Shown here: piece after piece, positions 35,555 to 56,788 of the stretch
How positions within the stretch are numbered: position 1 is the first letter of the stretch
How the letters are laid out: every line of letters begins with the position of its first letter
Source of the DNA: Roseithermus sacchariphilus
GTDB taxonomy: Bacteria > Bacteroidota > Rhodothermia > Rhodothermales > MEBIC09517
Length of the DNA: 64,000 bases
Assembly (NCBI GenBank): GCA_003285105.1
Contig: CP030158.1
Span: forward strand, 3,706,449-3,770,448
Direction of reading: 5' to 3'
Program-made: the position numbers and the translations under genes
The notes under the pieces: generated by a model
Database searches by the model: none
Told to the model about the DNA's origin: nothing
The model's input: the letters and a program-made list of their open reading frames with translations, nothing else

Positions 35555-35561
35555 CTGGCTG

Positions 35562-35634
35562 AGCGGAAGACGGGATTCGAACCCGCGACCTTTTGCATGG
35601 CAAGCAAATGCTCTACCAGCTGAGCTACTTCCGC
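35562..35634 (-). tRNA. tRNA-Gly (anticodon GCC)
   Basis: A 73-base cloverleaf on the minus strand. The acceptor arms are GCGGAAG and CTTCCGC, the D-arm starts AGCTCAG, and the anticodon stem-loop has TTGCCAT in the loop (anticodon GCC, reading GGC and GGT). The T-arm is GCGGG-TTCGAAT-CCCGT with one mismatch-tolerant pair. The 3' CCA is not encoded. A terminator follows directly. No integrase or attachment-site duplication was seen next to it. Confidence 0.97.
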
Positions 35635-41468: not shown

Positions 41469-44400
41469 ATGCCACCCGCTCTCCCGCGTGCCCGGCGCGG
41501 CTGCCTCAGCGTCTCCGCGCTGCTGCTCTTCGCGCTGCTGCCGTTCCTTCCCGCCCCGGCCGACGCCCAGCCGTCCCGGATCCCGGCGGCCCCGGCGCTC
41601 GATCAGCAGCAACTGCCGATCCTCTACCACCATGGTTTCAACGACGACGGCCGCCTCTGGGCCCTCAACGCCGAGGGCACCGGCAGCGGCACGGCCGCCG
41701 AGTACTGGGCCACGCTGGAGGTCCGTGCCCCCAACGGCGCACTGCTGCAAAACGGCCTGGAGACCTACGTCGTCCAGTACTGGGCCACGAGCGACGACCC
41801 GAACGTCCCCGACGGCAACCCCGACGCGACGGCCGCCGAGGGGTGGGCCGCGCTGAAAACGCCCGCGCAGATCCGCACCCCCGGCCAGAACTACAACTCG
41901 CCCGACCCGGTCGGCTACCTCCTCGACAACGCCGACCAGCTTCTGCAGGTCGTCCCGGAATGCACGCTGACGATCACGGGATTTCAGTGCACCTTTCCCG
42001 CCACCGAAGTCCTCAAAGGGGCGCGGGACCGGTTCATCACCAGCAACTACAACCGCAACGGCGTCGCAGAACACCACTCGCAGGACCTGGCCGAGTTGCT
42101 GGAAGGGCTCTTCGCCACGGATAGCCGCTTCGCCGGGCTGCGCCAGGTGAACGTGATCACCCACAGCGCCGGCGGTGTGGACGTCCGCGCCACACTCCAC
42201 CGGCTCAACCAGTCGGACGCCCAGGACGTCCGCGAGACCATCGCCAACGTGATCTACACCGCCCCGCCCTTCGGCGGAAGCACCGCGGCGGTCTTCGCCG
42301 GGCTGTTCTACGAGGAGACGATCGACGCGTCGGTCTTCCAGGACCCGTGGCTCCTCAACGGAGCCGGCGCACTCACCCTCCGCGAGCTGTTCCTGGCCCT
42401 CGCCCGCTCGTTCGTCGACCCCCGCGCCGAGCAGGTCATGGCGCTTCTCTTCGACGCCGTTCCGAAGCCGCTCGGCCTCGACCCCAGCGCCGTCACCATC
42501 GACCAGCTCGCCACGAATCCGGCCCTGGCGACGCTGGCCGTCCCGTTCGTCTACGCGCTGCGCGATCTTGTGACGGGCTTCCTCGGCTTTCCCGGCACGC
42601 CGAAGGTCCTCACGGATCTGACCCCCCGGGGCGCCGTCGAGAACCTGAACCGCTATCAGCCCAACTTCAACACGTCCCAGTTCGTGACCTGGGCCGAAGG
42701 CGGCGGCGCCATCAACCTGTCGCCTTCCCTCAGCGCCGCGCAGGCAGCCTACGACGCCTCGGGGACGTGTTGCGAAGCATTTCTCGACCCGGAAGCCCTC
42801 ACGCGCCCGCCGGACGACTGGGCCCTCTCCAACGTCAGCGCGCGCATGCTGGCCACCGAAGCGGGCGGCATGCAGGAACTGGCCGGGTACCCGACGCTCT
42901 GGCACGGCAACATCACCACCGAGCTGGAGCTCGTCGGGCTGGACTGGGCCAGGACGCTCGTGACGCCGGTCACGGACCTGCTCGTGTCCGGGCCGATCTT
43001 CGCCGAGTCCGCGGAGGACCGCTACTACCTGGCCGGGCCGACGACGACGCTCCAGTTCGTGCCGGAGGCCCGCGAGGTCCGCGACCGCTTCGGCCAGACG
43101 GCGACCATCGCGGCGCAGGCCGTCGAATACCGTGTGGTGACGTACTCGGCAGACCAGGAGCCGACGTACCACCCGTGGGTTACGGTCCCCCCCAACGCTT
43201 CCGTGCAACTGGCCGACCTGGAGCGGGGCGCCATCGACCTGTCCGGCGAGCAACTGTTCCGGCTCGACTGGCGGGCCGTCAGCCAGAGCGGCGCCCGCGA
43301 GGCCATCCGCTCGGCCTCGTTCCGCATGGACACCACCGCGCCGTCCGTGGTGCTGATCGACGTGTTCACCCCCGGCGTCGAAGACAACCCCGAGATCGTC
43401 GGAGCCGCGACGCGCACCGTCGGCCGGCGCTTCCGGCGGGGCTCGCTCCTGACCGGCCGCACCGACCTCACCAACCTCGCCCGGCTCACCGGCCAGCCGG
43501 AGTCCAACTGGATCATCAGCAACCCGTCCAACAAGCTCCTGCGCATCGACTTCGACGAGCCCGGCGCCCGCGTACGCTACCAGTGGGACGACTTCTTCAC
43601 CGACCCCACCACCATGACGCTCCCGAACGTCTCGCTCGCCCTCCCCCTGTCCGATCTCACCCCCGGACCGCACACGCTCTACTTCGAGGTGTCCGACGCC
43701 CTCGGCAACGTCACCAACGCCGTGCAGTCCATCCGCATCCTCGTCGATGACCAGCCGCCGGTGGTGGGGCTGAACTACACCCCGGCGGGCGCGCTCGGCA
43801 TCGTCGTCGGGCCGGAGACGCCGCTGGAGTTCGTGGCCGAGGACGTCGAGACGGGCGTCGTCACGGGCGGGCTCACGGTGCCCGGCCTCGGCACCATCGG
43901 CGTGAACCAGAGCGTCCGGCTCGGCGAGACGTCGATCGCCGACGCCGCCGAGGGCACCGGCATCCTCGGCACCTTCGTCAGCCTCCAGGCCGACGTGCGC
44001 GACGCGGTCAACAACCGGCAGACGCAGCGCTTCGACGTCTACTACGACTTCTCGCCGCCCCGCCTGGACCTGCAACACGTCGGCGAGAGCGTGCTGACCA
44101 CCGAGGGCATCTACCGCACCACCGAGCACGCGGTCCGCGTGGAAGTGCTCGTGCGCGACAACGCGGGCTTCGAGCCCCCGACGTGGACGGCCAGCAAGCC
44201 CGGCACGGACCAGCTCCGCGGCGGACTCCCCTTCCGCCTCGAAAGCGCCGGCGGACGGCGCGAGGCGTACGGCGGCACGGTGCCCCTGTTCGACGGGCTC
44301 AACGTGATCGTCGTCACCGCCCGCGACCTCGTCGGCAACACCGCCTCGCTGTCGCTCACCGTCGAGAAGGTCGAAACGCTGATCGAAGACGACCCCGACC

Positions 44401-46601
44401 GGCCCATCGAGCTGCTCTCGCGCCGCATCGAGGGCGGGCTGATCGGCCGCAACGGGCCGGCCAACGTCGCCATGAGCGACGACGGCAGCGTCTTCGCCTT
44501 CGACTCCAGCCGCCGCGACCATGTAGCCGACGATACCAACGACCAGCGCGACGTCTTCGTCTGGCGAAACAGCACGGTCCTCCAGGCCAACACCAGCGCC
44601 GACGGGACGCCCGCCGCCGACGGCGAGTCCCGCAGTCCGGCCGTCAGCGGCGACGGGCGATACGTCTTCTTCGCCAGCGAGGCGACCAACCTCGTCGACA
44701 CCCCGACCGCCGGCTGGAACCTCTACGTGAAGGACCTCCGCACCGGCCGCATCGCGCTCGTCTCGCGGCGCCTCGACGGCACGCCCGCCAACCTGAGCGA
44801 CGGATTCGCCCGGCTCTCGTGGCTCCGCATGAGTGCCACCTCTTCGGGCCGGTACCTGTTCTTCGCCGACCGCTTCGCCGGCTACGTGGCGGACGATACC
44901 AACGGCAACCTGGATGTCTTCGTGGCCGATCTCGACCCGGACGTGAACGGCGATTTCTTCGACACGGTGCCGGTCATCACCCGCGTGAGCCGCGGCTTCG
45001 ATGGAAGTGAGGCGACGGGCGGCGGCCTCACGGGCGGCTCGCGCTACCCGTCGGCGTCCCGCGATGGGCTGTTCGTCACCTTCCAGACCTCGCACACCAA
45101 CCTCGTCCCCGGCGACACCAATGACCGCACCGACGCGGTACTGGTCCGCTTCGGCGGGGTCGATGCCGAGGGCACGATCGACCTGAGCTCGATCACGGCG
45201 ATTCCACTCGCTACCGCCCCCGATGGCACGACGGCGGAATGGGGCAGCGAGCACCCGACGATCGACCGAACGGGCCGGACGGTGGCCTTCATCACCGCGC
45301 AAAACCTGCTTCTGGAGGACACCAACAACGAGGGGGTCGACACCGATGTCTACCTCTCGACGGGCTTCCTCGAAAACTGGCAGAACCGGGTCCTGACGCT
45401 GGCGAGCAAGAGCACCAGCGGCGCCGCCGTGGGCGGCCGCCTGGCCCCCAACCACGCGCCGACGGTGGCCGATTACACGGCCGAGGGCACGCCCCGCGTA
45501 GCCTACCTGGCCGACAAGAGCACCCTCGTCGAGGGCGACAACAACGACGCCCTCGACCTGTTCGTCCACACCAAAGGCGCCGGCACGTCACCCGAGGCGA
45601 TCAACTGGCTCGGCGCCACCGTGCCCTCCACCCTCAGCGTCCGCGAGGGCGGTATCACGCCGGACGGCGCCTACGCCTGGTGGGTCACGCTCGAAGAGTA
45701 CTCGACGGTGGTGGGCGCCGGGACGGGACTGGACCTCTACCGCCGCCGCCTCGACCCCGAAGCCGCCATGGAGGCCCCGCAGATCGTGCAGCAGCCGGCG
45801 GACGTCGCGGCGTTCGCGGGCGAGAACGTGGCGCTGAGCGTGCAGGCCACCGGCCGCCCCGCTCCCACCTATCAATGGTTCCGCAACGGGGAGCCCCTCT
45901 CCGGCGCCACGAACGCGACGCTCTTCCTGTCCAACATCGGCTTTGCCGACGCAGGGCGCTACACCGTGCGCGTCTCGAACGAGGCGGGTGAAGTCTCGTC
46001 GGCCCCGGCCACCCTGACGATCACGTCGCTGACACCCGTCTTCCTGACCCAGCCCACGCCCGTCGAGGTGCGGGTGGGCGAGGAGGCTGTGCTGACCGCG
46101 GAGACGGCGGGCCTGGCCCCGCTGGCGCGGCAATGGCTGCGCAACGGCGTCCCGCTGGCCGACGATGGGCGCATCCAGGGCGCGACGACCGACACGCTGC
46201 GCATCGCCCCGGCCCAGGTAGCCGATGGCGGGACGTACGCGCTCCAGCTCTCGAACCCCCGCGGCACCCTCACCAGCGAGGCCGTGCTCCTGACCGTGAC
46301 GCCCTCCACGGCCACCACGGACGAGGCCACGCTGCCAACGACCTTCACCCTCGACCAGAACTACCCCAACCCGTTCAACCCGATCACCACAATCCGCTAC
46401 GGCCTGCCCGAGCCCACGCACGTCCGCCTGGAGCTGTACACCCTCCTCGGCCAGCGCGTGGCCGTCCTGGCCGACACCGACCAGGCGGCCGGCTGGCACA
46501 CGGTGACGGTAGACGGCCGGCACCTGGCCAGCGGTGCCTACCTGTACGTCCTCCACGCCGGAGACCACACGTCCTCGCGGACGCTGGTGCTGCTGAAGTA
46601 G
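41469..46601 (+). CDS. Large T9SS-secreted protein: lipase-like domain, propeller, two Ig domains
   Basis: A 1,710-residue protein. Residues 1-34 are a signal peptide. An alpha/beta hydrolase-like domain follows: L-Y-H-H-G-F-N-D-D at about 53 and V-I-T-H-S-A-G-G-V at about 230 (nucleophile candidate Ser233). The middle (about 600-990) has repeated Ig-like or FN3-like segments with D-T-T-A-P-S and D-D-Q-P-P-V. Residues about 990-1420 show repeated S-D-D-G-S-V-F-A-F and V-A-D-D-T-N units, like a Ca2+-binding TolB/PD40 propeller. Two Ig-like domains follow (Y-Q-W-F-R-N-G-E-P-L and A-R-Q-W-L-R-N-G-V-P-L). The end is the T9SS sorting tail with FTLDQNYPNPFNPITTIRYG. The likely location is the cell surface or outside; the enzyme activity is inferred. 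Confidence 0.9.
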   Translation: MPPALPRARRGCLSVSALLLFALLPFLPAPADAQPSRIPAAPALDQQQLPILYHHGFNDDGRLWALNAEGTGSGTAAEYWATLEVRAPNGALLQNGLETYVVQYWATSDDPNVPDGNPDATAAEGWAALKTPAQIRTPGQNYNSPDPVGYLLDNADQLLQVVPECTLTITGFQCTFPATEVLKGARDRFITSNYNRNGVAEHHSQDLAELLEGLFATDSRFAGLRQVNVITHSAGGVDVRATLHRLNQSDAQDVRETIANVIYTAPPFGGSTAAVFAGLFYEETIDASVFQDPWLLNGAGALTLRELFLALARSFVDPRAEQVMALLFDAVPKPLGLDPSAVTIDQLATNPALATLAVPFVYALRDLVTGFLGFPGTPKVLTDLTPRGAVENLNRYQPNFNTSQFVTWAEGGGAINLSPSLSAAQAAYDASGTCCEAFLDPEALTRPPDDWALSNVSARMLATEAGGMQELAGYPTLWHGNITTELELVGLDWARTLVTPVTDLLVSGPIFAESAEDRYYLAGPTTTLQFVPEAREVRDRFGQTATIAAQAVEYRVVTYSADQEPTYHPWVTVPPNASVQLADLERGAIDLSGEQLFRLDWRAVSQSGAREAIRSASFRMDTTAPSVVLIDVFTPGVEDNPEIVGAATRTVGRRFRRGSLLTGRTDLTNLARLTGQPESNWIISNPSNKLLRIDFDEPGARVRYQWDDFFTDPTTMTLPNVSLALPLSDLTPGPHTLYFEVSDALGNVTNAVQSIRILVDDQPPVVGLNYTPAGALGIVVGPETPLEFVAEDVETGVVTGGLTVPGLGTIGVNQSVRLGETSIADAAEGTGILGTFVSLQADVRDAVNNRQTQRFDVYYDFSPPRLDLQHVGESVLTTEGIYRTTEHAVRVEVLVRDNAGFEPPTWTASKPGTDQLRGGLPFRLESAGGRREAYGGTVPLFDGLNVIVVTARDLVGNTASLSLTVEKVETLIEDDPDRPIELLSRRIEGGLIGRNGPANVAMSDDGSVFAFDSSRRDHVADDTNDQRDVFVWRNSTVLQANTSADGTPAADGESRSPAVSGDGRYVFFASEATNLVDTPTAGWNLYVKDLRTGRIALVSRRLDGTPANLSDGFARLSWLRMSATSSGRYLFFADRFAGYVADDTNGNLDVFVADLDPDVNGDFFDTVPVITRVSRGFDGSEATGGGLTGGSRYPSASRDGLFVTFQTSHTNLVPGDTNDRTDAVLVRFGGVDAEGTIDLSSITAIPLATAPDGTTAEWGSEHPTIDRTGRTVAFITAQNLLLEDTNNEGVDTDVYLSTGFLENWQNRVLTLASKSTSGAAVGGRLAPNHAPTVADYTAEGTPRVAYLADKSTLVEGDNNDALDLFVHTKGAGTSPEAINWLGATVPSTLSVREGGITPDGAYAWWVTLEEYSTVVGAGTGLDLYRRRLDPEAAMEAPQIVQQPADVAAFAGENVALSVQATGRPAPTYQWFRNGEPLSGATNATLFLSNIGFADAGRYTVRVSNEAGEVSSAPATLTITSLTPVFLTQPTPVEVRVGEEAVLTAETAGLAPLARQWLRNGVPLADDGRIQGATTDTLRIAPAQVADGGTYALQLSNPRGTLTSEAVLLTVTPSTATTDEATLPTTFTLDQNYPNPFNPITTIRYGLPEPTHVRLELYTLLGQRVAVLADTDQAAGWHTVTVDGRHLASGAYLYVLHAGDHTSSRTLVLLK

Positions 46602-46685: not shown

Positions 46686-46727
46686 CAAAGCTTCACGCCC
46701 GTTGAGGGGGTGGGGGCAGGATCGGGG

Positions 46728-46759
46728 TTTCGGACGACCTCGATCCTGCCGTACCTTTT
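46728..46759 (+). promoter_or_regulatory. Possible Bacteroidota-type promoter for folD
   Basis: TTTC at 46728-46731 and TACCTTTT at 46752-46759, 20 bases apart, resemble the TTTG / TAnnTTTG promoter elements of Bacteroidota. It lies 39 bases before the folD start, after the previous gene's terminator. The match is imperfect. Confidence 0.3.
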
Positions 46760-46798: not shown

Positions 46799-47692
46799 TT
46801 GGCACACCTCATCGACGGAAACGCCATTGCCGCCCAGGTGCGGGCGGACGTCCAGGCCGAGGTAGCCGCCTGGACGGCCGCCGGGCACCGCCCCCCCTAC
46901 CTCGCCGTCGTCCTCGTGGGGGACGATCCGGCCTCGGCCTCGTACGTGCGGGGGAAGACCCGCGACGCCGCCGAGGTGGGCATCCTCAGCGATACCCTCA
47001 CCTACGACGCCCGCTTCTCGGAAACCGAACTCCTCGACCTCATCGCCGACCTGAATGCCGACGACGGCGTCGACGGGATCCTCGTGCAACTCCCGCTGCC
47101 CGACCACATCGACGAGCAGAAGGTCATCTACGCCATCGACCCGGCCAAGGACGTCGACGGGTTCCACCCGGCCAGCATTGGCAAGCTGGTGCTGGGCCAG
47201 CCGGGCTTTCAGCCCGCCACCCCGGCCGGCATCATGGAGATGCTCCGGCGGTCCGGCATCTCCCCGCGGGGCCAGCACGCCGTGGTCGTGGGCCGCTCCA
47301 ACATCGTCGGAAAGCCGATGGCCAACCTGCTGCTGCAGAAAGGCGTCGACGCCACGGTGACCGTCTGCCACAGCCGCACGCCGGACCTGCCTTCGATGAC
47401 GCGCCAGGCGGACATCCTGGTGGCCGCCATCGGACGCGCCCACTTCATCACGGCCGACATGGTCAAGCCCGGGGCGGTGGTGATCGACGTGGGCATCAAC
47501 CGGGTGGAAGACGCCACGCGCCCCCGGGGCTACCGCCTCGTGGGGGACGTCGACTTCGAGGCGGTACGGGAGAAGGCCGGCTGGATCACGCCGGTGCCGG
47601 GGGGCGTAGGCCCGATGACCCGCGCCATGCTGCTGCGCAACACGATGCTGGCGGCCCGGAACCGCCTGGAGCGCCGCGCCGGCAGCCGGTAG
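46799..47692 (+). CDS. folD: Methylenetetrahydrofolate dehydrogenase/cyclohydrolase
   Basis: A 297-residue bifunctional FolD that interconverts 5,10-methylene-THF, 5,10-methenyl-THF and 10-formyl-THF with NADP. Signatures are [14 protein letters not shown] (catalytic Lys and Tyr), [31 protein letters not shown] and [11 protein letters not shown]. The start is TTG at 46799; no ATG or GTG gives the conserved H-L-I-D-G N-terminus. It follows a terminator, so it has its own promoter. Confidence 0.97.
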
Positions 47693-47785: not shown

Positions 47786-48895
47786 GTGGTGCCTGCCCTC
47801 TCTCCCTCCCCCCTGCAGGAGGCCTCCCCGGCCCCCTCGGCCCCTCAGCAGGTAGCAGACAGCCTCGCCGCCGCCGTCGACTCGGCCGCCGCCGGTCTCG
47901 ACTCCGCCACGGCGGACACGAGCCTGAACGCGATCGACCACATCGGGCGGGAGGTGGGCGAAGCCGGGCGCCTGCTCATCAGCGGCGAGTGGGAGCTCTT
48001 CTGGACGCGCCTCTACGAAGGCCTGGCGGGGCTGGTCGTCAGCTTCATCCCCCGCCTGCTGACGGCGCTCTTCGTCCTGGTCCTGTTCTACAGCCTCTAT
48101 CGGGCCGTGGACTCGCTGCTGCACCGGGTCCTGCATCGCAGCCGTCGCGTGGATCGGGGGCTGGAAAACCTGCTCGTGAAGACCTACCGCATCGTGGCCT
48201 GGATCTTCATCAGCATTCTGGTGCTCGACCAGTTCGGGGTGAATGTGACGGCGCTGCTGGCCGGGCTCAGCATCGCCGGCATCGCCGTGGGCTTTGCGGC
48301 GCGGGACACGCTGGAGAACTTCATCTCGGGCATCACCATCCTCATGGACAAGCCGTTTCGCATCAACGACTTCATCGAGGTGGCGGACACCTACGGCCAG
48401 GTCGAGGAGATCACGCTGCGTTCGACGCGCATCCGCACGCTCAACAACCAGCTCATGGTGATGCCGAACATCCAGATGATCAACCAGAAGCTGATCAACC
48501 ACACGATCCTGGGCATCCTGCGGGTGGAGGTGCCCTTCGGCATTGCCTACAAAGAATATCCGCAGGAGGCCCGCGAGGTGGTGCTCAAGCTGACGGAAGG
48601 GGACGACCGGCTGCACCCGGATTACCCGCCGCAGGTGGTGGTGACGGCCCTCAACGATTCGAGCGTGGACCTCTGCCTGCGCCTCTACCTGGCGGACCCG
48701 TCCAAGGCCGTCCCGGTCCGTTTCGAATACATCGAAAAGATCCGGGAGGCCCTCCGCGAGGCGGACATCGAGATCCCCTTCCCGCACCTGCAGGTGTTCA
48801 TCGACGAGGCGAAGGCCTTCGAGCGCTCCTTCCTGATGCAACCGCACCTGCCCGTTTCCCGCGCCTCCGACGCGCCTCCGAACGCCGAAGCCTGA
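47786..48895 (+). CDS. MscS family mechanosensitive channel
   Basis: A 369-residue membrane protein. A Pro/Ala-rich N-terminus and a hydrophobic segment (about 85-106) precede the MscS core: I-F-I-S-I-L-V-L-D-Q-F-G-V-N-V-T-A-L-L-A-G-L-S-I-A-G-I-A-V-G-F-A-A-R-D-T. That is the pore-lining helix with Gly/Ala packing, followed by N-F-I-S-G-I-T-I-L-M-D-K-P-F-R-I-N-D-F-I. It is similar in size to E. coli MscS plus an N-terminal extension. It releases solutes at hypo-osmotic shock. A GTG start at 47786 is used; the true start may be later, since residues 1-60 are low complexity. Confidence 0.9.
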   Translation: MVPALSPSPLQEASPAPSAPQQVADSLAAAVDSAAAGLDSATADTSLNAIDHIGREVGEAGRLLISGEWELFWTRLYEGLAGLVVSFIPRLLTALFVLVLFYSLYRAVDSLLHRVLHRSRRVDRGLENLLVKTYRIVAWIFISILVLDQFGVNVTALLAGLSIAGIAVGFAARDTLENFISGITILMDKPFRINDFIEVADTYGQVEEITLRSTRIRTLNNQLMVMPNIQMINQKLINHTILGILRVEVPFGIAYKEYPQEAREVVLKLTEGDDRLHPDYPPQVVVTALNDSSVDLCLRLYLADPSKAVPVRFEYIEKIREALREADIEIPFPHLQVFIDEAKAFERSFLMQPHLPVSRASDAPPNAEA

Positions 48896-48923: not shown

Positions 48924-49769
48924 ATGCAGATCGGACTCATCGGCCTTCGCCCGCCGGGGCGGCGCGTCGCTCGCCGCCTGCTCGCCCACGCGCACGAGGT
49001 CCGTGGCTACGACCGGGACCCCGGCGCCGTCGAGGCGGCCGCGGAAGACGGCATCGCGGTGGCGGAAACGCTGGAAGCCCTGCTCCAACGCCTGGAGCCG
49101 CCCCGCGTGCTCTGGGTGATGGTCCCCTCGCACGGGGGCACGCGGGCCGTGCTGGACGCCCTGGCCGAACGACTCGCCCCGGGCGACATCGTGGTCGACG
49201 CCGGACCGAGCGCCTTAGCGGACACCCGCCGCCGCGCCACCATGCTGCACCGCCGCAGCCTGCTGTTCCTCGACGCCAGCCTGCATCCGGCGGCCCCGGA
49301 CGGATTCACGCTTCTGGTGGGCGGCCCCGAGCCGGCCGTCGACCGGCTGCGACCGGTCTTCGAGGCGCTGGCCCCGCCGGCGGCCGGTGGCTGGCACCAC
49401 GTCGGGCCGAACGGCGCGGCGCATTACGTCCGCATGGTGCGCGAGGGCGTCCTCGCGGCCGTACGGCAGGCGACCGCCGAGGGCCGGCGGCTGCTGCGCC
49501 ACGCCCGGGACGCCGGCCTGGACCTGACAGCCGACGCCATCGAGGCCGCGCCGGTGCTGCTCCCCGAGGACCTGGCGACCGCCTCTGAGGCCGGCAACGC
49601 CGACGGGACGGGCCGCAGCGAGACGGACGGCATCTCCGTGCCGGAGGATCTGCAGCGGCTCGTCGAGCACGCCCTGTCGCTCGGCGTTGCCGCCCCGCTG
49701 CTGACGCTCGCGCTCGTGGAGCGCCTGCGAACGCCTCCCGAGCCTGAGGCCTCCGAACGGCCGGCTTGA
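48924..49769 (+). CDS. 6-phosphogluconate dehydrogenase-like pseudoenzyme
   Basis: A 281-residue homologue of the decarboxylating 6PGDH family (Gnd/YqeC type). The overall pattern is kept: M-Q-I-G-L-I-G-L, V-D-A-G, L-L-V-G-G-P-E-P-A-V-D-R-L-R-P-V-F-E-A-L-A, H-Y-V-R-M-V. The catalytic parts are changed. The dinucleotide loop reads L-R-P-P-G (residues 8-12) where G-x-x-G is normal. The S-G-G-x-x-G substrate loop is replaced by S-L-H-P-A-A-P-D-G (119-127). In the K-M-V-H-N-G motif Lys, His and Asn are Arg170, Arg173 and Glu174. A working dehydrogenase is therefore unlikely. It is followed by zwf (33 bases) and pgl, so a regulatory or structural role in the pentose phosphate pathway is inferred. 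Confidence 0.85.
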   Translation: MQIGLIGLRPPGRRVARRLLAHAHEVRGYDRDPGAVEAAAEDGIAVAETLEALLQRLEPPRVLWVMVPSHGGTRAVLDALAERLAPGDIVVDAGPSALADTRRRATMLHRRSLLFLDASLHPAAPDGFTLLVGGPEPAVDRLRPVFEALAPPAAGGWHHVGPNGAAHYVRMVREGVLAAVRQATAEGRRLLRHARDAGLDLTADAIEAAPVLLPEDLATASEAGNADGTGRSETDGISVPEDLQRLVEHALSLGVAAPLLTLALVERLRTPPEPEASERPA

Positions 49770-49802: not shown

Positions 49803-51239
49803 ATGCTCGACTCCCACCTCTTCATCGTCTTCGGGGCTACCGGCGACCTCATGCACCGCAAGCTGCTGCCGGCCCTCTACGACCTCCTCCTCCAGGACGC
49901 GGCCTCCGGCCAGTATGCCATCCTGGGCACCTCGCGCTCTCAGCTCAGCGACGAGGAGTTCCGTGCCCAGGCCCGGGAGGCCATGCGCGAACACGGGCTG
50001 ACCAAGAAAGAGGCCGAGCGCTGGTGCTCCGCGCATCTTCACTTCCAGTCCCTCGGCGAGCAATCCGAAGCCGACTACCAGGCCCTTGCCGACCGCATCG
50101 AGGCGCTGGAGAAAGAATATGACCTGGCCGGCAACCGCGTCTTTTACCTGGCGCTGCCTCCCCAGGCCTTCGAGGACACCCTGACCAAGCTCGGGCAGGT
50201 GGGCCTGAACCGGTCCGAAAAGGGCTGGACGCGGATCGTGGTGGAGAAGCCCTTCGGGCACGACCTCGCCTCCGCCCGGGAGCTGAACGACCTCATCCAT
50301 CGCTACTTCGCGGAAGATCAGGTCTACCGGATCGACCATTACCTGGGGAAGGAGACGGTCCAGAACCTGATGGTCTTTCGGTTCGGGAATGCCATTTTCG
50401 AATCCCTCTGGAATCGTGAACACGTCGAGCGCGTGGATATTCTCGTGGCTGAGGATCTGGGCGTGGGCAGCCGGGCCGGGTACTACGACCGCTCCGGGGC
50501 GTTGCGGGACATGATCCAGAACCACCTGACGCAGCTCCTGACGCTGATCGCCATGGAAGCCCCGGCCACGGCGGAAGCCGATGCCATCCGGCACGAGAAG
50601 ATCAAGGTGCTGCAGAGCATCCAGCCGATCCAGGCCGAGGACGTCGTGCTGGGCCAGTATACCCGCGGGGTGCTCAACGGCCAGCCCATACCGGGCTATC
50701 GCGAGGAAAAGGGGGTCGCGTCGGACTCCAACACGGAGACGTACGTCGCCCTTCGCCTGCAGATCGCCAACTGGCGCTGGCAGGGCGTGCCGTTCGTGCT
50801 GCGCACGGGCAAATGCCTGCCCCGTCAGATCACCCGCATCGCGGTGACCTTCCGCCGCCCGCCGGTGATGCTGTTCCGCTCGTTCAACGGGTGCGAACTG
50901 ACCCGCAACGTCCTCACCATCACCCTTCAGCCGGATGAGGGCTTCGACCTCAGCTTCGAGGTGAAATCGCCGGCCAAGGGGTTCCAGGTCAAGACGGAGC
51001 ACCTGAGCTTCCGCTACGAGGATGCCTTCGGGCCGCTGCCGGACGCCTACCGCACGCTGCTGGAGGACATCGTCAACGGCGACCAGACCCTGTTCGTCCA
51101 TGCCCAGGAGGTCGAGGCTTCCTGGAAGCTCTATACCCCGATCATCGAACAGCGGCTGCCGGTGTACTTCTACTCGGCCGGCACCTGGGGTCCCACCGAA
51201 GCCCAGCGCCTCCTGACCGATGCCCCCCCGGATGCCTGA
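49803..51239 (+). CDS. zwf: Glucose-6-phosphate 1-dehydrogenase
   Basis: A 478-residue enzyme that oxidises glucose-6-phosphate to 6-phosphogluconolactone with NADP. It has F-G-A-T-G-D-L-M-H-R-K-L-L-P-A-L at residues 11-26 (cofactor binding), E-K-P-F-G-H-D, the active-site signature R-I-D-H-Y-L-G-K-E-T-V-Q-N, and R-T-G-K-C-L-P near residue 337. The length is normal. The stop codon overlaps the first possible start of pgl by a few bases. Confidence 0.98.
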   Translation: MLDSHLFIVFGATGDLMHRKLLPALYDLLLQDAASGQYAILGTSRSQLSDEEFRAQAREAMREHGLTKKEAERWCSAHLHFQSLGEQSEADYQALADRIEALEKEYDLAGNRVFYLALPPQAFEDTLTKLGQVGLNRSEKGWTRIVVEKPFGHDLASARELNDLIHRYFAEDQVYRIDHYLGKETVQNLMVFRFGNAIFESLWNREHVERVDILVAEDLGVGSRAGYYDRSGALRDMIQNHLTQLLTLIAMEAPATAEADAIRHEKIKVLQSIQPIQAEDVVLGQYTRGVLNGQPIPGYREEKGVASDSNTETYVALRLQIANWRWQGVPFVLRTGKCLPRQITRIAVTFRRPPVMLFRSFNGCELTRNVLTITLQPDEGFDLSFEVKSPAKGFQVKTEHLSFRYEDAFGPLPDAYRTLLEDIVNGDQTLFVHAQEVEASWKLYTPIIEQRLPVYFYSAGTWGPTEAQRLLTDAPPDA

Positions 51240-51252
51240 CCCTACCCCCCGG

Positions 51253-51975
51253 ATGCCTGACCCCACCCTCCACGTTCATCCCGACCCGGAAGCCCTGGGC
51301 CGGGCCGCTGCCGGGCAGATCGTGCAGTGGTTGCACGAGGCCCCGGCGGACCGGCCGCTGAGCCTCGTCCTGGCCGGCGGCTCCACCCCGGCCCCGTGCT
51401 ACCGCCACCTGGCGACGACCTTCCGCGATGCCGTCCCCTGGCACCGGCTCTACCTGTTCTGGGGCGACGAACGCGTCGTCCCCCGGGACGACCCGGCGAG
51501 CAACTTTCGCATGGCGCTGCACACGCTGATCCAGCACGTCCCCATCCCCCCTGAGCACGTGCATCGGATGCCGACGGACGGCGCTCCTCCGACGGTGGCG
51601 GCGCGCGCCTATGAGGCGACCCTCCGCGCCTTCTTCGATGCGCAGAGCGACGACCGCTTCGACGTGACGCTGCTCGGCATGGGAGCGGACGGACACACCG
51701 CCTCGCTCTTCCCGAACGATCCGATCCTGCAGGAACGCGAGGCCTGGGTGTGCCCTGTGGAGGCGCCCTCGTACATGACCCCCACCCGGCGCCTGACCCT
51801 CACCGTACCCCGCCTCAACCGAAGCCGGCACGTGCTCTTTCTGGTGGCGGGCGAAGCCAAACGCGCGCCCCTGCGACGCATCCTCACCGAGCCCCCCACC
51901 GACGCCCTGCCCGCCAGCCGCATCCAGGCCACCGACACGCTGGCCTGGTTCGTAGATGCCGCAGCCCGCCCTTGA
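51253..51975 (+). CDS. pgl: 6-phosphogluconolactonase
   Basis: A 240-residue enzyme of the DevB/SOL type, hydrolysing 6-phosphogluconolactone. S-L-V-L-A-G-G-S-T-P is at about residues 37-46, then L-F-W-G-D-E-R-V-V-P and L-G-M-G-A-D-G-H-T-A-S-L-F-P, all family signatures. Starts at 51232 and 51220 are also possible: the region has a 21-base tandem duplication including ATG-CCT-GAC, so ATG occurs at 51232 and 51253. The second is chosen because it lies after the zwf stop. Zwf, Pgl and the 6PGDH-like protein form one operon. Confidence 0.93.
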   Translation: MPDPTLHVHPDPEALGRAAAGQIVQWLHEAPADRPLSLVLAGGSTPAPCYRHLATTFRDAVPWHRLYLFWGDERVVPRDDPASNFRMALHTLIQHVPIPPEHVHRMPTDGAPPTVAARAYEATLRAFFDAQSDDRFDVTLLGMGADGHTASLFPNDPILQEREAWVCPVEAPSYMTPTRRLTLTVPRLNRSRHVLFLVAGEAKRAPLRRILTEPPTDALPASRIQATDTLAWFVDAAARP

Positions 51976-52253: not shown

Positions 52254-53465
52254 ATGGCTATCGTTCTCGCCTTCAGCGGAGGCCTCGACACATCGTTCTG
52301 CGTCCCCTACCTGATCGAAACTTATGGCGAACCCGTCCACACCGTCACGGTCAATACCGGCGGGTTGGCCGACGGCGAGGCCGACGCCCTGGCGGCTAAG
52401 TCCCGCCGGCTCGGCGCTGCCAGCCACCTCACCATCGACGCACGGCGGGATCTCTTCGACGACCACCTGAGCTACCTCATCAAAGGCAACGTCCTGCGCG
52501 GAGGGGTCTACCCCCTGTGCGTCGGCCCCGAGCGGGTCGTGCAGGCGCGCAAGGTGGTCGAAGCGGCCCGGCAACTCGGCGCGCGTGCGGTGGCCCACGG
52601 CTCGACCGGCGCGGGCAACGATCAGGTCCGCTTCGACGTGGCCCTGCGGATGCTGGCCAGCGATCTGGACGTCCTCGCTCCGATCCGCGAACTCGGATAC
52701 AGCCGCGAGCAATCGTCCGCCTACCTCGCCGAGCGCGGGCTGCCGGTCCCGCAGAAGACGACGACCTACTCCATCAACAAGGGCCTCTGGGGGACCACCA
52801 TCGGCGGCAAGGAAACGCACACGACGGACACGCCGCTGCCCGACGAAGCCTACCCGGATACCGTCCCCCCGGCCGCCAGCCCGGACGCCCCCCGCACGGT
52901 GACGCTGGGCTTCGAGGCCGGCCTCCCGACCCACCTCGACGGCGAAGCCATGGACCCGGTGACCCTCATCGAGACGCTCAACGATCTCGGTGCCGCCTAC
53001 GGCGTGGGGCGGGACATCCACGTGGGGGACACGATCCTGGGCATCAAGGGCCGCGTCGGCTTCGAGGCCCCGGCCGCGCTGATCCTCATCCAGGCCCACC
53101 GGGAGCTGGAGAAGATCGTGCTCACGCGCTGGCAGCAGTATCAGAAAAGCCACCTGGCCGACTTCTACGGGATGCTGCTGCACGAGGGGCAGTACTTCGA
53201 TCCGGTGATGCGCGACATCGAGGCGTTCCTGGATTCCTCGCAGGAGGTCGTCACCGGGACGGTCACCGTACGCCTCTTCAAAGGGCACATCGCCGTGCAG
53301 GGCTGCCAGAGTCCGTTCTCGATGTTCAACACGGGCGTGGCGACCTACGGCGAGGAGAATGAGCTGTGGAACGGCCGCGACGCCCAGGGCTTCACCCGGA
53401 TCTACGGGCTCCAGGGGCTCCTCGCCGCCCGCGCCCGCGAACACGCGGCCTCCGAAACCACCTGA
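52254..53465 (+). CDS. argG: Argininosuccinate synthase
   Basis: A 403-residue enzyme that joins citrulline and aspartate using ATP. The N-terminus L-A-F-S-G-G-L-D-T-S (residues 5-14) is the nucleotide-binding loop. H-G-S-T-G-A-G-N-D-Q-V-R-F is the second signature and Y-S-I-N-K-G-L-W-G-T-T-I-G-G-K is typical of the Bacteroidota variant. It opens the arginine cluster and lies 42 bases after the attenuator-like terminator. In this type of pathway free citrulline is made by deacylation of acylcitrulline by argE. Confidence 0.97.
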   Translation: MAIVLAFSGGLDTSFCVPYLIETYGEPVHTVTVNTGGLADGEADALAAKSRRLGAASHLTIDARRDLFDDHLSYLIKGNVLRGGVYPLCVGPERVVQARKVVEAARQLGARAVAHGSTGAGNDQVRFDVALRMLASDLDVLAPIRELGYSREQSSAYLAERGLPVPQKTTTYSINKGLWGTTIGGKETHTTDTPLPDEAYPDTVPPAASPDAPRTVTLGFEAGLPTHLDGEAMDPVTLIETLNDLGAAYGVGRDIHVGDTILGIKGRVGFEAPAALILIQAHRELEKIVLTRWQQYQKSHLADFYGMLLHEGQYFDPVMRDIEAFLDSSQEVVTGTVTVRLFKGHIAVQGCQSPFSMFNTGVATYGEENELWNGRDAQGFTRIYGLQGLLAARAREHAASETT

Positions 53466-53476
53466 CCCGTCCCGCC

Positions 53477-54511
<1,035 letters not shown>

Positions 54512-54534
54512 CCCTCCCTTTCCCTGCCAGACCC

Positions 54535-55716
54535 ATGACCACGGCCGAGATCCAGCGGCTGGAAGATGCCTTCCAGTTGCCCACGTACAAGAAAATGCCC
54601 ATCGCGCTCGTGCGCGGCGAAGGCTGCCGCGTGTGGGACGCCGACGGAAACGCCTACTATGACTTCTACGGCGGCCATTGCGTCGCACTGCTCGGCCATT
54701 GCCCGCCGCGCGTCGTAGCGGCGGTGCAGGAGCAACTGGGCCGGCTCCTGTTCTACTCGAACGTGGTCTACAGCCCCGTGCGCGCCCGCGCTGCCGCGCT
54801 CCTGGCCGAGATGGCCCCCGACGGCCTCGGGCATGCCTTCTTCTGCAACTCCGGCACCGAGGCCAACGAGACGGCCCTGAAGCTGGCCCGCACGTGGACG
54901 GGCAAGACGGCCGTGATCGCCATGGAAGGGGACTTCCACGGCCGTACGCTGGGTAGCCTCGCGACGACCTGGGGCGAGCACTACCGCGCTCCTTACCGCG
55001 CCATCCTGCCCGAGACGATCTTCGTGCCCTTCGGAGAGGCCGACGCCGTGGCCCGCGTCCTGGCCGAACGCGACGACGTGGCCGCGATCATCCTGGAGCC
55101 CATCCAGAGCATGGCCGGCATCTTCGAGGCGCCGCCGGCCTTCTACCAGGCCCTCCGCCGGCTGTGCGACGCGCACGGCGTCGCGCTCATCTTCGACGAA
55201 GTGCAGACCGGCGTGGGCCGCACCGGGACGTTCTCCATCGCCGAGCAGTACGGCATCACCCCGGACCTCATCACGCTGGCCAAGAGTCTCGGCGCCGGGG
55301 TCCCCGTCGGGGCGGTGCTGGCCTCGGACGCCATCGCCGCCTCGGTCGGCTACGGCGACCAGGGGACGACCTTCGGCGGAGGCATGCTGGCCATGGCCGC
55401 CGTGACGGCCACGCTGGAGACGCTCCGCGACGAACGCCTCATGGAGCGGGCCGCTCACATCCATGCCCGCATCCGGGACGGCCTGCGCCCGCTCGTCTGC
55501 GACGTGCGCGGGCGGGGCTGCCTGATCGGGGTGGAACTGGACGGCCCGGCGGCCCCGGTGCTGGCCGCGCTGCGCGCCGAAGGCATCCTGGCGGGCGGCG
55601 CCTCCCATCCCCGTGTGATCCGTCTGATGCCGCCGCTGAACACCCCGGACGACGCCATCGACGCCCTCATCGCGGCCTTCCAGACCGTGCTGGCCTCGAA
55701 CCCCACCACCGCCTGA
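54535..55716 (+). CDS. argD: Acetylornithine aminotransferase
   Basis: A 393-residue PLP-dependent class III aminotransferase that makes N-acetylornithine from the semialdehyde. F-F-C-N-S-G-T-E-A-N-E-T-A-L-K-L (about 102-117), D-F-H-G-R-T-L-G, I-I-L-E-P-I-Q, L-I-F-D-E-V-Q-T-G-V-G-R-T-G and Lys250 in I-T-L-A-K-S-L-G are diagnostic. It is 23 bases after argC. In other pathways the same family uses N-succinyl or acetyl-lysine substrates; position fixes it here as argD. Confidence 0.95.
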   Translation: MTTAEIQRLEDAFQLPTYKKMPIALVRGEGCRVWDADGNAYYDFYGGHCVALLGHCPPRVVAAVQEQLGRLLFYSNVVYSPVRARAAALLAEMAPDGLGHAFFCNSGTEANETALKLARTWTGKTAVIAMEGDFHGRTLGSLATTWGEHYRAPYRAILPETIFVPFGEADAVARVLAERDDVAAIILEPIQSMAGIFEAPPAFYQALRRLCDAHGVALIFDEVQTGVGRTGTFSIAEQYGITPDLITLAKSLGAGVPVGAVLASDAIAASVGYGDQGTTFGGGMLAMAAVTATLETLRDERLMERAAHIHARIRDGLRPLVCDVRGRGCLIGVELDGPAAPVLAALRAEGILAGGASHPRVIRLMPPLNTPDDAIDALIAAFQTVLASNPTTA

Positions 55717-55759
55717 CCCCCTCTGCCATCCCCCGCTGACCGCCATCCCCCGCTGACCT

Positions 55760-56788
55760 GTGTCTGCCTCCACCGCTTCGCTCCATCACCTCCTCGACTG
55801 GCACGAACTCGACGACGCGCTCTGGTTCGACCGTATCGACGCGGCGCTGCGCCACCATCGCGATCGCACCTGGTCGCAGAAAGCCCGGGGCAAGAGCCTC
55901 GGCCTGGTCTTCTTCAACCCCTCGCTCCGCACCCGGACGTCGATGGAGCTGGCCGGCGTCGAACTCGGAGCCCACGTCACCACGATCAACGTCGGGCAGG
56001 GGACGTGGGGCTTCGCCTGGGAAGACGGCGTCGTCATGGACGGAACGGAGGCCGAGCACATCCGTGAGGCCGTCGGCGTGCTCTCGCGCTACTACGACGC
56101 CCTCGGCGTGCGCGTCTTCGCCTCCGGGACGGACTACGAGCGGGACCGCGACGACGTGTTGCTCAAGACGTTTGCCGGGGCCGCCTCCGTGCCCGTCATC
56201 AACCTCGAATCGGCCTTCTACCATCCCTGCCAGGCCCTCGGGGACGCCGCCACGCTGATGACCCGCTTCGACGGACAGGTGGCCGGCAAGCGGTTCGTGC
56301 TGGCCTGGGCCACGCACCCCCGCCCCCTGCCGATGGCCGTCCCCAACTCGGCCCTGCTGGCGGCAGCCCGCCTCGGGATGCACGTGACCGTGGCCCGGCC
56401 CGACGCGTACGCGCTCGACCCGGGCATCATGGAGCAGGCCCGCCGGCATGCCGCCTCGCTGGGCGGGTCCGTCGAGGAGACGAACGACCTCGATGCCGCC
56501 TGCGAGGGGGCCGACGTGATCTATGCCAAGGCGTGGGCCGGCCCGCTGCGCTACACCGACCCGGAGCGAGAAGCGTCCCTGCGCACGGAAACCTACCGCG
56601 ACTGGCGCATCACGGCCGACCGGATGGCCCGCACCCGCAACGGGGCCTTCATGCATTGCCTGCCCGTGCGCCGCAACGTCGTGGTGGACGATGCCGTGCT
56701 CGACGGCCCCCACGCCATCCACTTGCTCCAGGCCGAGTTCCGCCTCCACGCGCAGAAGGCGATCCTGGAATACGTCTGGCAGCTCTGA
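55760..56788 (+). CDS. argF': N-acyl-L-ornithine carbamoyltransferase
   Basis: A 342-residue carbamoyltransferase. F-F-N-P-S-L-R-T-R-T-S (residues 51-61) is the carbamoyl phosphate loop, H-P-C-Q-A-L the second, and H-C-L-P-V-R-R-N the catalytic segment. W-A-T-H-P-R-P-L-P-M-A-V-P-N-S-A replaces the ornithine-specific loop and is typical of the acetyl- or succinylornithine carbamoyltransferases. Citrulline is thus made in acylated form. Which acyl group is used cannot be read with confidence. The start is GTG at 55760. It lies between argD and argB. Confidence 0.93.
   Translation: MSASTASLHHLLDWHELDDALWFDRIDAALRHHRDRTWSQKARGKSLGLVFFNPSLRTRTSMELAGVELGAHVTTINVGQGTWGFAWEDGVVMDGTEAEHIREAVGVLSRYYDALGVRVFASGTDYERDRDDVLLKTFAGAASVPVINLESAFYHPCQALGDAATLMTRFDGQVAGKRFVLAWATHPRPLPMAVPNSALLAAARLGMHVTVARPDAYALDPGIMEQARRHAASLGGSVEETNDLDAACEGADVIYAKAWAGPLRYTDPEREASLRTETYRDWRITADRMARTRNGAFMHCLPVRRNVVVDDAVLDGPHAIHLLQAEFRLHAQKAILEYVWQL

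Follow-up and report, generated by a model that had tools for sequence, protein, structure and literature searches.

An apparently inactive 6-phosphogluconate dehydrogenase homolog in the zwf-pgl gene cluster of Roseithermus sacchariphilus and its possible non-catalytic role

Results

Gene Order at the gndX Locus

The 64,000-nucleotide stretch of DNA that we analyzed (the window) carries on its forward strand the gene cluster folD-mscS-gndX-zwf-pgl (Table 1). An earlier note, made from the DNA letters, had read the third of these open reading frames as a degenerate homolog of 6-phosphogluconate dehydrogenase (6PGDH, Gnd), and our analysis confirmed this: the frame begins and ends exactly where it was placed, and its 281-residue product, GndX, matches the short-6PGDH model NF007161, albeit below the cut-off. 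The gene lies 28 bases 3′ of mscS and 33 bases 5′ of zwf. The first two genes of the cluster, folD and mscS, are not pentose phosphate genes. All five genes may form one transcript, because a terminator-like hairpin precedes folD and no further forward-strand site of this kind was found past 46750 up to 52300 by the consensus scan, which returned three sites against 1.6 expected. The flanks of the cluster encode a secreted protein of 1710 amino acids (41469-46601) with repeat and Ig-like stretches and, by eye, an NYPNPFNP tail like those of type IX secretion and, directly 3′ of pgl (52254-56788), an arginine synthesis cluster named by eye as argG, argC, argD and a carbamoyltransferase gene. 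The sole tRNA of the window is tRNA-Gly (gcc) at 35561-35634 on the reverse strand.

The same gene order, folD-mscS-gndA-zwf-pgl, is found in G021, a relative from the same order (Rhodothermales), in which GndA is intact. At most other loci in the order gndA adjoins zwf, and contigs of Aquificaceae have the gndA-zwf-pgl neighborhood too. Homologs of GndX, mostly short GndA, were matched in 45 of the first 60 order relatives, and 51 of 114 order genomes had a match at E < 1e-20. By alignment and gene order, gndX is the syntenic orthologue of short NAD-type GndA, and the colinearity with relatives indicates that it is the ancestral gene at its ancestral locus and not an acquired relative. At another locus of the order (G005:C524:1026-2445) zwf occupies two frames and adjoins an end fragment of GndA where the contig begins; a frameshift or an assembly error may be the cause.

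Table 1. Features of the gndX cluster and of the gndX gene (window positions).
Feature	Position	Strand	Evidence or remark
Terminator-like hairpin	46715..46750	+	Upstream of folD; consensus scan
folD	46799..47692	+	tblastn 74% vs G021 folD; colinear
mscS-type mechanosensitive channel	47786..48895	+	PF00924, PF21082; colinear in G021
gndX, degenerate GndA, 281 aa	48924..49769	+	Pfam, NF007161, alignment, site-class tests
N-terminal Rossmann domain and inter-domain helix, residues 1-199	48924..49520	+	Constrained outside ligand sites
Cofactor turn L8-R9-P10-P11-G12 replacing LGKMG	48945..48959	+	Alignment
D92-A-G-P95-S replacing DGGNS, Asn102 lost	49197..49211	+	Alignment
S119-LHPAAPD-G127 replacing SGG substrate loop, three-residue deletion	49278..49304	+	Alignment
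R170-MVREGVL-A178 replacing KMVHNGIEY; catalytic Lys, His, Asn, Glu, Tyr lost	49431..49457	+	Alignment
Eroded C-terminal helical domain	49521..49766	+	Alignment, retention ratios, pLDDT; partner-reaching R..FGGH tail deleted
zwf, glucose-6-phosphate dehydrogenase, intact	49803..51239	+	TIGR00871, 574 bits (cut-off 400.6); branch length ordinary
pgl, 6-phosphogluconolactonase, intact	51220..51975	+	TIGR01198, 208 bits (cut-off 124); overlaps zwf

GndX Has Lost the 6PGDH Active Site

The only Pfam family to match GndX above its cut-off was PF03446, the NAD-binding domain; PF00393 had no match in GndX, whereas all short orthologues listed for the order have one. NF007161 was the best curated model (E=9.7e-53 over residues 1-271), yet the score of 179 bits falls short of both the cut-off of 271 and the 358-468 bits of complete short orthologues in the phylum, and TIGR00872 gave 141 bits against a cut-off of 297. 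There were also partial matches to models of HIBADH and tartronate semialdehyde reductase. GndX shares ancestry and locus with the short 6PGDHs but not their model score, catalytic residues or dinucleotide turn. The protein search of the order (in which the window genome is the sole member of its family in our comparison set), of the phylum sample and of genome contigs found no relative with the altered residues of GndX; a Zwf-based search of the genome contigs returned distant loci only, and no other degenerate GndA of the phylum was present among the NF007161 matches listed (down to about 247 bits).

The residues of 6PGDH that touch 6-phosphogluconate or act in catalysis are Asn102, Ser128, Gly129, Gly130, Lys183, His186, Asn187, Glu190, Tyr191, Lys260, Thr262 and Arg287, together with Arg446 and His452 from the partner subunit (PMC2675582, PMC8900737). 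None of the 14 is kept in GndX. In the alignment the sites from Asn102 to Tyr191 are occupied by P95, H121, P122, A123, R170, R173, E174, L177 and A178. Those of Lys260, Thr262 and Arg287 correspond to Q244, L246 and L213, although the mapping within residues 200-250 is uncertain because this region is so diverged, and the tail that carries the Arg446/His452 positions is deleted. (Sheep Lys260, Thr262, Arg287, Arg446 and His452 were mapped to the short form via the motifs GKWT/GRWT, RS and R..FG.H.) Also missing are the elements VVRSW, GEGRWT and, at the C terminus, R..FGGH. The dinucleotide turn, GxGxxG in the family, reads GLRPPG versus GLGKMG, with Arg in place of the middle Gly. Overall, GndX retains 39 of 87 near-invariant family columns, versus at least 93% in each of 41 relatives.

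The residues quoted in the earlier note (L8-R-P-P-G12, S119-L-H-P-A-A-P-D-G127 and R170/R173/E174) are all right, and the loss of catalytic sites turned out to be larger than claimed, as it extends to Pro95 (AGPS for GGNS), Leu177, Ala178 and the tail. Judging from sequence, GndX is almost certainly dead as a 6PGDH. The suggestion that it might instead bind 6-phosphogluconate does not fare well for the ancestral site: none of the phosphate and carboxylate ligands remains there, those of the partner-subunit tail included, and such binding is therefore unlikely.

An Intact Gnd Is Encoded Elsewhere in the Genome

A search of the genome (one contig of 4,807,988 bases) for a second, intact gnd was successful. 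A long Gnd of 486 amino acids is encoded at C1:2946982-2948439, 0.8 Mb from gndX; it is the sole PF00393 match in the genome, has all the expected motifs (SGG, KMVHNGIEYGD, GTGKWT, RSV and RDYFGAH), and its gene is followed by a phosphofructokinase gene. The NRT motif after strand 2 presumably reflects NADP use; most GndA orthologues have Asp at this position. Since the genome encodes this intact enzyme, gndX is not needed for catalysis.

In one family of the order (f12: G011, G032, G039, G046 and G072) a second zwf lies directly beside the long gnd, apart from the first zwf. In another (f15, e.g., G014, G025 and G061) nearly all listed genomes have an intact long Gnd without a zwf match, and Gnd in these genomes may therefore serve without the standard oxidative branch. 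Short GndAs also occur on viral contigs (L081-L160, e.g., L081:1501-2529), where VVGSW replaces the cellular VVRSW at the position of Arg287 and the Asp after strand 2 gives way to YRRN. These differences suggest that phosphate is bound differently and that NADP is preferred.

Constraint on the N-Terminal Domain

Is gndX simply a redundant gndA that has been decaying since the long Gnd replaced it, its frame open by chance with help from high G+C and its position in an operon? We consider this improbable, although several observations are in its favor: the intact Gnd elsewhere in the genome, a GC-rich amino acid composition (GARP fraction 0.45, no lysine), a protein branch of 3.04 changes per site for GndX, where the genome's own Zwf has 0.44, and a C-terminal domain whose erosion could be ongoing. 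The pattern of loss, however, is uneven. Within residues 1-199 only 1 of 13 invariant ligand sites is kept versus 32 of 42 other invariant sites (p=1.5e-5 by Fisher's test, an approximation in that it takes sites as independent). Four of these 13 (G9, A69, G70 and G94) are cofactor-loop sites of our own assignment, and with the literature list alone the count is 0 of 9. For the whole protein the corresponding figures are 1 of 23 and 38 of 64 (p=1.8e-6). Relative to distant relatives, the consensus-match ratio of the non-ligand classes in the N-terminal domain is 0.77-1.09, so that these sites are about as conserved as those of the relatives, whereas the ratio for ligand sites is 0.08; in the C-terminal domain it is 0.35-0.6 in most classes. 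In a gene that was merely unselected, ligand sites should fare no worse than the others, and such patterned loss therefore speaks against decay. Nor does gndX have the uniform loss of constraint or the stops and frameshifts of a decaying pseudogene: its frame is open and its indels are all in-frame. As in a pseudoenzyme, the ancestral active site is lost and the fold is retained under selection, in this case in the N-terminal domain only.

The predicted structure has the same division. AlphaFold2 was given nine sequences, including GndAs from Aquificaceae and viral contigs. The pLDDT of the GndX model was mostly 76-95 up to residue 170, stood at about 62-68 over residues 171-200 and dropped to 27-50 in residues 201-281. 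Its best Foldseek matches were the short 6PGDHs 4e21, 6vpb and 8ihe. The model backs the fold of the N-terminal domain only. The claim of the earlier note that the Gnd fold pattern is kept stands for that domain and the inter-domain helix, but not for the C-terminal all-helix domain, which is largely eroded.

Codon Composition and Neutral Simulations

The GC content of gndX at codon positions 1, 2 and 3 is 0.85, 0.535 and 0.90, and its neighbors range from 0.67 to 0.74 at position 1 and from 0.40 to 0.54 at position 2. Of 6000 neutral simulations, none reached GC1 >= 0.851 with GC2 <= 0.535; these runs started from five orthologues, whose use as the ancestral composition is an assumption of the comparison. 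Codon position 2 mostly sets hydrophobicity. That GC2 stays low at so high a GC1 consequently points to a fold constrained under strong GC pressure, and this continued constraint on second codon positions is a further argument against decay. We dropped the open frame itself as proof of selection, because as many as 40% of the neutral runs with substitutions alone kept the frame open; the lack of stops is, by the same token, weak evidence against decay. The absence of lysine from all 281 residues of GndX is probably due mostly to GC pressure (the adjoining pgl product has about one).

Expression in the Sister Strain RA

R. sacchariphilus strain RA (reported ANI 96.2%) has two xylanases (PMC6539836); the window genome has two GH10 genes. 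Strain RA has the gene order of the window (AWN76_002240 pgl, 002245 zwf, 002250 6PGDH and 002260 folD), and its phosphofructokinase gene AWN76_005345 adjoins a second 6PGDH gene, AWN76_005350, as at the intact Gnd described here (PMC7409140). RNA-seq on xylan found AWN76_002250 to be up 2.72-fold, AWN76_005350 to be down to 0.47, pgl (AWN76_002240) to be up 2.36-fold and zwf (AWN76_002245) to be unchanged (PMC7409140, Table 7). With zwf unchanged, regulation is not uniform across the operon. The RA genes are equated with gndX and the long Gnd by gene order, not by sequence; if the match holds, gndX in strain RA is whole enough for annotation, is transcribed and responds to xylan in the opposite direction to the true Gnd, which would speak against decay. 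The gene is probably still transcribed in the window genome as well. It also follows that the label "6-phosphogluconate dehydrogenase" at the gndX locus, carried into a published pathway transcriptome table, is probably wrong, and that the true Gnd of strain RA appears to go down on xylan, not up.

Discussion

The view that gndX has lost 6PGDH catalysis but is retained under selection is supported by the replacement or deletion of all 14 ligand residues, by the intact second Gnd, by site-class retention in the N-terminal domain and by the reported differential expression of the syntenic gene in the sister strain, and we are fairly confident that the gene is selected and not decaying. What, then, is being selected? 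As the active site is lost while the folded front half is kept, the function is probably one of binding or regulation instead of chemistry, and on balance we favor the interpretation that gndX encodes a selected pseudoenzyme with a non-catalytic binding role of some kind. We envisage that, once catalysis had passed to the long NADP-type Gnd, the short GndA copy retained a task other than catalysis, performed by its N-terminal domain. The Rossmann domain would then be a binding surface within the oxidative pentose phosphate pathway, where contact with a neighboring protein (in the first place Zwf, failing that Pgl or the intact Gnd) might scaffold or tune the pathway. That GndX acts via a pentose phosphate protein partner is close to an even bet in our estimation, with Zwf as the first candidate because gndA-zwf linkage is conserved across phyla. 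A bolder version, in which the retired third enzyme of the pathway became a dedicated regulator of Zwf or the intact Gnd, OpcA-like but of a different fold and switched opposite to the active Gnd on xylan, is speculative and rather unlikely.

Alternatively, GndX could be a ligand sensor that takes up a different anion in the old cofactor and substrate cleft, which now has Arg9, Arg13/14, Arg170, Arg173 and His121, and signals through it. Several arginines have been gained at former cofactor and substrate positions and the Rossmann fold is predicted to be kept, but the arginine enrichment partly follows GC pressure and the cleft would have to be closed by a domain that is eroded, so we regard a sensor as a doubtful explanation, somewhat below decay in plausibility. 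A working oxidoreductase with a new substrate within the beta-hydroxyacid dehydrogenase superfamily would account for the fold and for the partial matches to HIBADH and tartronate semialdehyde reductase; it is nevertheless highly improbable, given that the SGG loop, Lys and Asn common to the whole superfamily (PMC8900737) are replaced and that Arg occupies the middle of the dinucleotide turn. We rejected as virtually without prospect the notion that sequencing or assembly frameshifts make an intact gndA look degenerate, because no off-frame family remnant in gndX scored above chance (matches <= 14.7 versus maxima of 15-19 for shuffled nulls), the genome is a complete single contig and the changes are spread along the whole gene.

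If a selected pseudoenzyme is the right interpretation, gndX would be a case in which a 6PGDH pseudoenzyme can be set beside its active replacement in one genome, beside intact orthologues at the corresponding locus of relatives and beside expression data for a sister strain; we found no 6PGDH pseudoenzyme in the open-license papers searched. It would also make a broader question testable: does the widespread gndA-zwf-pgl linkage reflect a non-catalytic contact that selection keeps once catalysis is lost?

Of the known systems, the closest to GndX in fold and sequence is the short GndA (TIGR00872, NF007161; 4e21, 6vpb and 8ihe), which at about 280-300 amino acids is of similar length and has the same locus, gene order and N-terminal Rossmann domain. 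Unlike it, GndX is without the substrate and catalytic residues, its cofactor turn is broken, its C-terminal domain is eroded and the swapped tail is absent. The long-chain NADP-type Gnd (TIGR00873) has a homologous N-terminal domain, but it is the product of a separate gene and has the PF00393 domain that GndX lacks. A possible functional parallel, offered as an idea only, is the OpcA-type regulator of cyanobacteria, a non-enzymatic protein that controls glucose-6-phosphate dehydrogenase (PMC13071761); the likeness would be one of function alone, and no homology is claimed. More generally, GndX resembles metabolic pseudoenzymes as a class, in which the fold is kept and the catalytic residues are lost while an active paralogue is encoded elsewhere.
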